Source of the DNA: Chloroflexaceae bacterium
GTDB lineage: Bacteria; Chloroflexota; Chloroflexia; Chloroflexales; Chloroflexaceae
Length of the DNA: 55,280 bases
Reading direction: 5' to 3'
NCBI GenBank assembly: GCA_028282325.1
Contig: JANQID010000057.1
Span: forward strand, 1-55,280
Each line of letters opens with the position of its first letter. The stretch's first letter is position 1. Below, one piece after another: positions 18,978-20,093 of the stretch. The translations under genes and the position numbers were made by a program. The notes under the pieces are model-generated. The model searched no databases, was not told the DNA's origin, and worked only from the letters and a program-made list of their open reading frames with translations.

Positions 18978-19013
18978 ACAACAACCCCCGGCTCTAGAGC
19001 CGGGGGTTGTTGT
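18978..19013. terminator. Strong bidirectional palindromic terminator
   Basis: A perfect 36-nt palindrome centred on CTAG, with a GC core CCCCCGGCTC/GAGCCGGGGG and A- or T-rich feet. It lies between the YceI gene (plus) and the micro-ORF (minus) and can serve both. Confidence 0.85.
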
Positions 19014-19037
19014 TATGGATCAGGATATCACCAGGGT

Positions 19038-19085
19038 TTATGCAACTTCCCCAGTGACACCCACACGCTCGTGACTACTACCCAT
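19038..19085 (-). CDS. Micro-ORF, 15 codons, with near-perfect Shine-Dalgarno
   Basis: Reads MGSSHERVGVTGEVA then TAA. The start ATG (19083-19085) is preceded by AAGGAGGTGAT, almost a full complement of the 16S rRNA 3' end, at a 4- to 6-nt spacing. A consensus promoter (19139-19167) lies about 50 bp upstream and the strong palindromic terminator (18978-19013) begins 25 bp after the stop. Together they define a free-standing transcript of about 150 nt whose only evident content is this peptide. It has no hydrophobic segment, no signal and no cysteine. I do not recognise it. It could be a real small protein, a signalling peptide precursor or the decoy ORF of a regulatory RNA. Confidence 0.5.
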   Translation of the reverse strand: MGSSHERVGVTGEVA

Positions 19086-19138
19086 GGGCATCACCTCCTT
19101 CACGCCTGGTCGGCATTGTTGAGATTTGTGTCGTAAGT

Positions 19139-19167
19139 AATGTACCTGATCGATTGGGCGTTGTCAA
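19139..19167 (-). promoter_or_regulatory. Consensus sigma-70 promoter of the micro-ORF transcript
   Basis: Minus-strand TTGACA (19162-19167), 17-bp spacer, TACATT (19139-19144). The -35 overlaps the TGA stop of the LysM gene upstream. Transcription would start near 19131 and run to the palindrome at 18978-19013. Confidence 0.75.
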
Positions 19168-19821: not shown

Positions 19822-19842
19822 CGCCTCGTTCGTCGTTATGCA

Positions 19843-20093
19843 CTCATCCAGAGCGGTGGAGGGACCGGCCCTGTGAAACCGCGGCAACCCCGCACGGGAG
19901 GTTCGGCATTGAGTGTTATGTCTTGAACTGCGACCTCGATTGCTCAGGACACACCCGCGCCATACAGAACTTTCCAGGAAGGTGCCAATTCCGGCAGCGT
20001 TCGCTGGCAGATGAGAGGGGAGTGCATTTGCAGCCAGTCCTGGCCTGCCTGACCGCACTCAGACTCTCATCTGTGTTGATGAGAGGTTTTTTT
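19843..20093 (+). promoter_or_regulatory. SAM-I (S-box) riboswitch with terminator
   Basis: The aptamer runs from CTCATC (19843) to GATGAG (20015), with hallmark segments AGCGGTGGAGGGA, CCGGCCCTGTGAAACC, CGGCAACC and GGTGCCAATTCCGGCAG. The expression platform is a Rho-independent terminator: CTCTCATC (20064-20071), GATGAGAG (20078-20085), then seven T (20087-20093). The 3' side of the P1 stem, CAGATGAGAG (20008-20017), is perfectly complementary to 20064-20073, giving an antiterminator that excludes the terminator. High SAM should therefore stop transcription. The coding start at 20094 follows the T-run directly, so its ribosome site (GAGAGG) also lies inside the terminator stem. Confidence 0.97.

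Follow-up and report, generated by a model that had tools for sequence, protein, structure and literature searches.

The window, that is the whole 55,280-nucleotide stretch of DNA analysed here (contig JANQID010000057.1 of a Chloroflexaceae bacterium), carries a promoter-like site, a Shine-Dalgarno sequence (SD), a 15-codon ORF and a palindrome within 190 bp of the minus strand (19167-18978). These four parts had been noted in a preliminary description made from the sequence alone, and all of them were confirmed. The promoter-like site (TTGACA-17-TACATT, 19139..19167, minus strand like all parts of the element) matches the promoter consensus at 10 of 12 positions, and transcription would be expected to start near 19132. 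A small hairpin with a 3-pair helix, P0 (GCC-GACCA-GGC, 19104..19114), lies just 5' of the 11-base SD AAGGAGGTGAT (19090..19100), which could presumably pair in full with the usual 3'-terminal sequence of 16S rRNA. The micro-ORF that follows, MGSSHERVGVTGEVA (19038..19085), runs from ATG through 15 codons to TAA, and its frame is kept through indels in relatives. A terminator-like, bidirectional palindrome (about 18978..19014) is common to the element and to the YceI gene (PF04264) downstream. This gene is convergent, which bears out the earlier remark that there is no gene here for the transcript to serve as a leader. Upstream lies a LysM gene (PF01476), of the same strand as the element, and its stop codon overlaps the -35 box. 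Elsewhere in the window, on the plus strand, a SAM riboswitch (RF00162, 80.5 bits, 19841-20017) precedes a gene for a Cys/Met metabolism PLP enzyme (PF01053), followed by an MTHFR-family gene.

Within the window the 11-base SD is found a single time, with a start codon after it, and an SD with a start codon would be expected by chance 0.015 times per window (order-1 Markov model, 200 windows). The predicted 155-nt transcript folds with -72.1 kcal/mol, compared with -48.9 kcal/mol for shuffled sequences (z -5.4; 0 of 200 shuffles), the terminator supplying much of this excess. Two features had escaped the preliminary description. The central part of the ORF is complementary to the SD: segment 1, GGTGATGCCC (19086..19095), overlaps the SD and can pair with segment 2, GGGTGTCACT (19053..19062), within the ORF. 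Past the stop codon lies segment 3, GGTGATATCC (19023..19032), an alternative partner that competes for the same segment 2.

The search of related genomes proposed in the preliminary description was carried out, and the element proved to be kept across the Chloroflexales and beyond. With a 261-base query, blastn gave matches at E values up to 1 in 36 of 41 related genomes, the strong ones spanning the stretch from P0 into the ORF. A covariance model (R1), built on 29 of 33 copies, found the element in 73 of 82 Chloroflexales genomes (54 of the 56 of good quality), and 69 of the 73 positive genomes had a single match. In an even sample of 301 Chloroflexota genomes R1 was positive in 48 and a broader model (R3) in 60, in 50 of them at 30 bits or more; most of the other genomes of this sample gave no match with R3. 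Matches of either model below 30 bits in other Chloroflexota were not counted as members. As SD-only controls served ten viral sites with the SD 18-mer, which scored 25.1 bits or less with R3. A pattern scan of 84,980 species genomes returned 53 stretches, 52 from Chloroflexota and one from a cyanobacterium (L167). One Thermomicrobiales contig end carries two copies head to head with overlapping 3' ends (L146, 5789-5956).

No Rfam 15 family scored above its curated threshold at the element, where only weak sub-threshold matches were seen (E up to 5 or 10). Chloroflexi-1 RNA (RF01698 in a table in the available part of PMC2864571) was ruled out because it had no match there. The element is not the 6S RNA of this organism either, since the genome has a separate 6S RNA gene (RF00013, 49.4 bits, G000:C56:61876-62045). 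A mobile or viral origin was likewise rejected: ten viral contigs do carry the exact 18-mer, but all of them lack the element, and plasmid searches gave no match to it.

Read from the alignments, the anatomy is that of a three-segment RNA switch in which segment 2 has two mutually exclusive partners. Among the Chloroflexales copies (alignment A2), pairing of segments 1 and 2 is possible in 290 of 290 cells, and the variation in segment 2 always keeps this pairing by wobble. Segments 2 and 3 are paired in 95.5% of the cells, and four of the ten pairs show two-sided (compensatory) changes. In a broader collection, 37 sequences drawn from Chloroflexota and Cyanobacteria together, 88.6% of the cells had segments 1 and 2 paired, and two of the pairs had changed on both sides. 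Segment 3 mostly lies 6-20 nt past the stop codon in Chloroflexota, and about 50-90 nt past it in Cyanobacteria; in 27 of 32 cyanobacterial copies its pairing with segment 2 was equalled by at most 2 of 200 shuffles, and the cyanobacterial variants include AGGTTG/CAACCT, AAGTTG/CAACTT and TAGTTG/CAACTA. Thus, in each of the two phyla a single part of the ORF can pair at two places, one of them the SD. The SD is nearly invariant and the best conserved part of the element (alignments A2 and A4). The P0 helix is present in 87.4% of A2 cells; in the form CCGnnYAGG it also occurs in Cyanobacteria, and it is missing from some other Chloroflexota copies. One Chloroflexota genus (L101-L104) has a weak version of the element (26 bits with R1), whose segment 2, GGGCCGCCTCC, could by eye pair with GGAGG and GCCC separately.

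A clear pairing of segments 1 and 2 was present in 99 of 107 distinct Chloroflexota copies. In 93 of these 99, segment 2 lies 17, 20, 23 or 26 nt from the ATG, all in one phase. The six exceptions comprise four copies of the Ardenticatenales type (28 or 31 nt, which also differ by three), plus one diverged copy and one truncated locus. By contrast, the non-coding distance from the stop codon to segment 3 occurs in all three phases (37, 31 and 21 of 89 copies). This is the pattern that selection on the reading frame gives. The stop codon in 140 aligned rows is TAG (76), TAA (59) or TGA (4), with one row unresolved. The ORF has 12-18 codons in most Chloroflexota copies and 22-24 in the cyanobacterial copies listed.

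Selection on the peptide sequence itself was tested by pN/pS and by codon-position entropy, and it appeared to be weak or absent. The pN/pS of the ORF was 0.77 in 29 Cyanobacteria, 0.81 in 15 Thermomicrobiales, 0.74 in 19 Chloroflexaceae and 0.90 in 21 fourteen-codon copies, and an excess of variation at third positions (p < 0.05) was detected in one of 12 zones. Substitutions between relatives, which the preliminary description had suggested testing, were not clearly synonymous. Its proposal of either a translated small RNA or a functional tiny protein was borne out, though unevenly: frame-preserving indels and the conserved start codon, SD and stop codon speak strongly for the former, and the latter is possible, with pN/pS values such as these and 11 of 12 zones lacking a third-position signal. 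The peptide may matter, although the two tests do not separate selection on it from constraint on the RNA. By eye the peptides are short and mostly polar, without the hydrophobic membrane-spanning stretch that is a trait of type I toxins.

Comparison of the flanks indicated that the element is a stand-alone gene, since the flanking genes change from genome to genome. The preliminary description had considered that loss of the peptide between conserved flanks would speak against a gene; it was found instead that the element is kept and that the downstream genes vary. Of 105 Chloroflexota copies, 64 had both promoter boxes, as against 1.8 for shuffled sequences; a strict terminator came after 60 of 106, as against 1.4. 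In Cyanobacteria strict terminators were found in 6 of 31 copies, by a scan that misses many real-looking terminators, including that of the window and most cyanobacterial ones, and the -10 scan gave 21 of 31, little above the 17.0 in shuffles. A LysM gene lies upstream on the same strand at 21 of 33 loci and at 9 of 40 further loci, all in Chloroflexales, and beside none of 18 copies outside this order. The synteny is real within Chloroflexales and absent outside.

In Cyanobacteria the exact 18-mer was present in 44 of 244 genomes, once in each, and the reversed 18-mer, used as control, was absent among the matches listed. A cyanobacterial model (R2) found one match in each of 81 of 234 genomes. 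The two models recognized each other's loci. R1 detected all 26 cyanobacterial loci, which came from a search with the SD string, at 23.4-40.7 bits (SD-only sites, 16.6-22.8), and R2 detected 43 of 50 Chloroflexota loci at 18.5-41.8 bits (SD-only sites, 14.5 or less). Both phyla have the pre-SD hairpin CCGnnYAGG and the two-partner segment 2, and some of their copies share the residues SSKRMG. Copies from the two phyla are thus likely to be homologous, although the SD gives part of the model score.

The cyanobacterial branch is probably ncl0160, matched here by its published description. This RNA was reportedly first named in Synechocystis, by Mitschke et al. in 2011. According to the available part of a later study (Brenes-Alvarez et al. 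2016, PMC4734099), it has 83 homologs in a set of 89 cyanobacterial genomes and is kept in most cyanobacteria outside the Prochlorococcus/Synechococcus lineage. The ORF is given there as 23-25 amino acids long, always preceded by a ribosome-binding site and ending in TAA (47), TAG (34) or TGA (2); the RNA has mapped transcription starts and an ORF predicted to be translated, and the authors concluded that translation is likely. ORF length and stop codon usage, as given in that part, fit the cyanobacterial copies found here, and so does the ribosome-binding site before the start codon, through which most of our loci were found. The window copy differs in having 15 codons and a segment 3 near the stop codon. 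It would be the Chloroflexota variant within a family that has, probably, ncl0160 as its cyanobacterial branch; 'variant' is preferred to 'member' because of the 15 codons as against 23-25. Neither competing folds nor Chloroflexota are mentioned in the available part of PMC4734099, the only article in the open-licence literature in which the name ncl0160 was found. The available part of a Synechocystis CRISPRi paper (PMC10615215) does not name it, and in the open-licence literature no report was found of the element in Chloroflexota or of the switch.

The stability of the two folds was compared by computing energies with segment 1 or segment 3 held open. For 33 loci the median difference between the fold with segments 1 and 2 paired (OFF) and that with segments 2 and 3 paired (ON) was -0.1 kcal/mol, and ON was the more stable one in 17. 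The mean absolute difference was 2.65, compared with 5.28 after random re-pairing of the values among species (none of 5000 permutations reached so low a value); this balance is suggestive only, because shared helices make both values correlate.

We consider it rather probable that the element is a free-standing gene that encodes a translated small RNA whose fold is set by translation and whose output lies at the RNA level. The promoter would give a transcript of about 155 nt ending at the element's own terminator. In the OFF fold the ORF-internal segment 2 would hold segment 1, and with it the SD, in a helix whose loop contains the start codon; in the ON fold segment 2 would be paired with segment 3 past the stop codon, leaving the SD free. 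As segment 3 is made last, OFF would be expected to form first. If a ribosome loaded early or managed to open the hairpin, it would translate the ORF and melt both helices, shifting the RNA towards ON. Selection would then act on the act of translation more than on the peptide sequence, and the output might be a trans-acting RNA that uses a stretch accessible in one of the folds, or a change in RNA stability. Several observations count against this reading: some peptide positions are well kept, the LysM gene frequently found upstream within Chloroflexales could signal a link, and in the window copy OFF is more stable by 1.1 kcal/mol, with the SD mostly paired in the ensemble. The predicted energies are moreover rough, and the constrained folds share helices.

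Known systems resemble parts of this layout. In leader-peptide attenuators three segments compete for pairing, the short ORF runs through the second of them, and a terminator comes next. The element has the same arrangement of segments, ORF and terminator, but it lacks a regulated downstream gene, and the part that is hidden is the SD of its own ORF. SgrS/SgrT is a dual-function small RNA with a short ORF; the element too would be one small RNA carrying a short ORF, with the difference that its SD is itself part of the switch. A third case is the downstream-peptide motif, which we take to be RF01704. It is described, in the available part of Weinberg et al. 2010 (PMC2864571), as a cyanobacterial 5' UTR structure beside a short conserved ORF, with insertions and deletions by multiples of three. 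Structured RNA, short conserved ORF, occurrence in Cyanobacteria and such indels are thus shared with the element, which nevertheless has no Rfam match and whose structure takes in the ORF and the part past it.

A rival explanation is that the 15-aa peptide is a working micro-protein and that the RNA structure merely regulates its synthesis. We regard this as possible but doubtful. The ORF is kept in frame, the SSKRMG residues recur across phyla in some copies, certain zones have a pN/pS below 1, such as the one past segment 2 in Thermomicrobiales with 0.69 (0.60-0.81), and ncl0160 was deemed likely translated in the available part of the study of Brenes-Alvarez et al. (PMC4734099). Overall, however, pN/pS is 0.74-0.90 and third-position excess is missing from 11 of 12 zones, and peptide length ranges from 12 to 24 residues. 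The copies of the Ardenticatenales type (L099, L126, L130 and L134) keep the pairing of segments 1 and 2 with segment 2 in another frame, so that the same RNA pairing goes with a different peptide core (WASPE).

It seems very unlikely that the RNA is a trap or decoy which binds 30S subunits through its unusually long SD, the peptide being incidental. An 11-base SD that is the best conserved part, and that can be hidden or exposed, would suit this role, but a pure trap would need no conserved frame or stop codon, and a single gene would have to be expressed in very large amounts. That the element serves a neighbouring gene in cis, as attenuator or leader, or is simply the 3'-terminal part of the LysM transcript, is highly improbable: attenuators do use similar competing hairpins and the LysM gene is a frequent neighbour in Chloroflexales, yet it is absent beside all 18 copies outside the order, most copies have a promoter-like site of their own, and the gene downstream varies instead of being conserved, and is convergent in the window. 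To chance coincidence of the four parts hardly any probability can be given. SD-ATG strings do arise by chance, as in the ten viral contigs that carry the exact 18-mer before other starts, but 0 of 10 showed the element on inspection, and 73 of 82 Chloroflexales genomes have it, with compensatory changes; conservation and covariation refute this explanation.

The element probably links the uncharacterised cyanobacterial ncl0160 to a second phylum, and with both phyla covariation can reveal a switch hardly visible in one. The element is absent from Rfam and is missed by ORF callers. Translated small RNAs, to which it probably belongs, are already a known kind; its distribution is unusually deep, and no description of the switch was found in the literature searched. 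The element offers a direct way of testing whether a trans-acting RNA can have its fold determined by translation of a micro-ORF. An element that is mostly single-copy, kept by almost a whole order, found elsewhere in Chloroflexota and with probable kin in Cyanobacteria is likely to have a basic role. As a distinctly speculative and rather unlikely interpretation, it might be an RNA sensor of translation-initiation capacity, older than the split between Cyanobacteria and Chloroflexota. Since the SD is transcribed some tens of nucleotides ahead of the segment that blocks it, a free 30S subunit would have only a short time to bind. If bound, the micro-ORF would be translated and the RNA would adopt the ON fold; if not, it would be locked in OFF. 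A kinetic sensor of this sort would require two folds of almost the same stability, as predicted here across species, and ribosome availability would then be reported in trans by the fold in which a single-copy RNA ends up.
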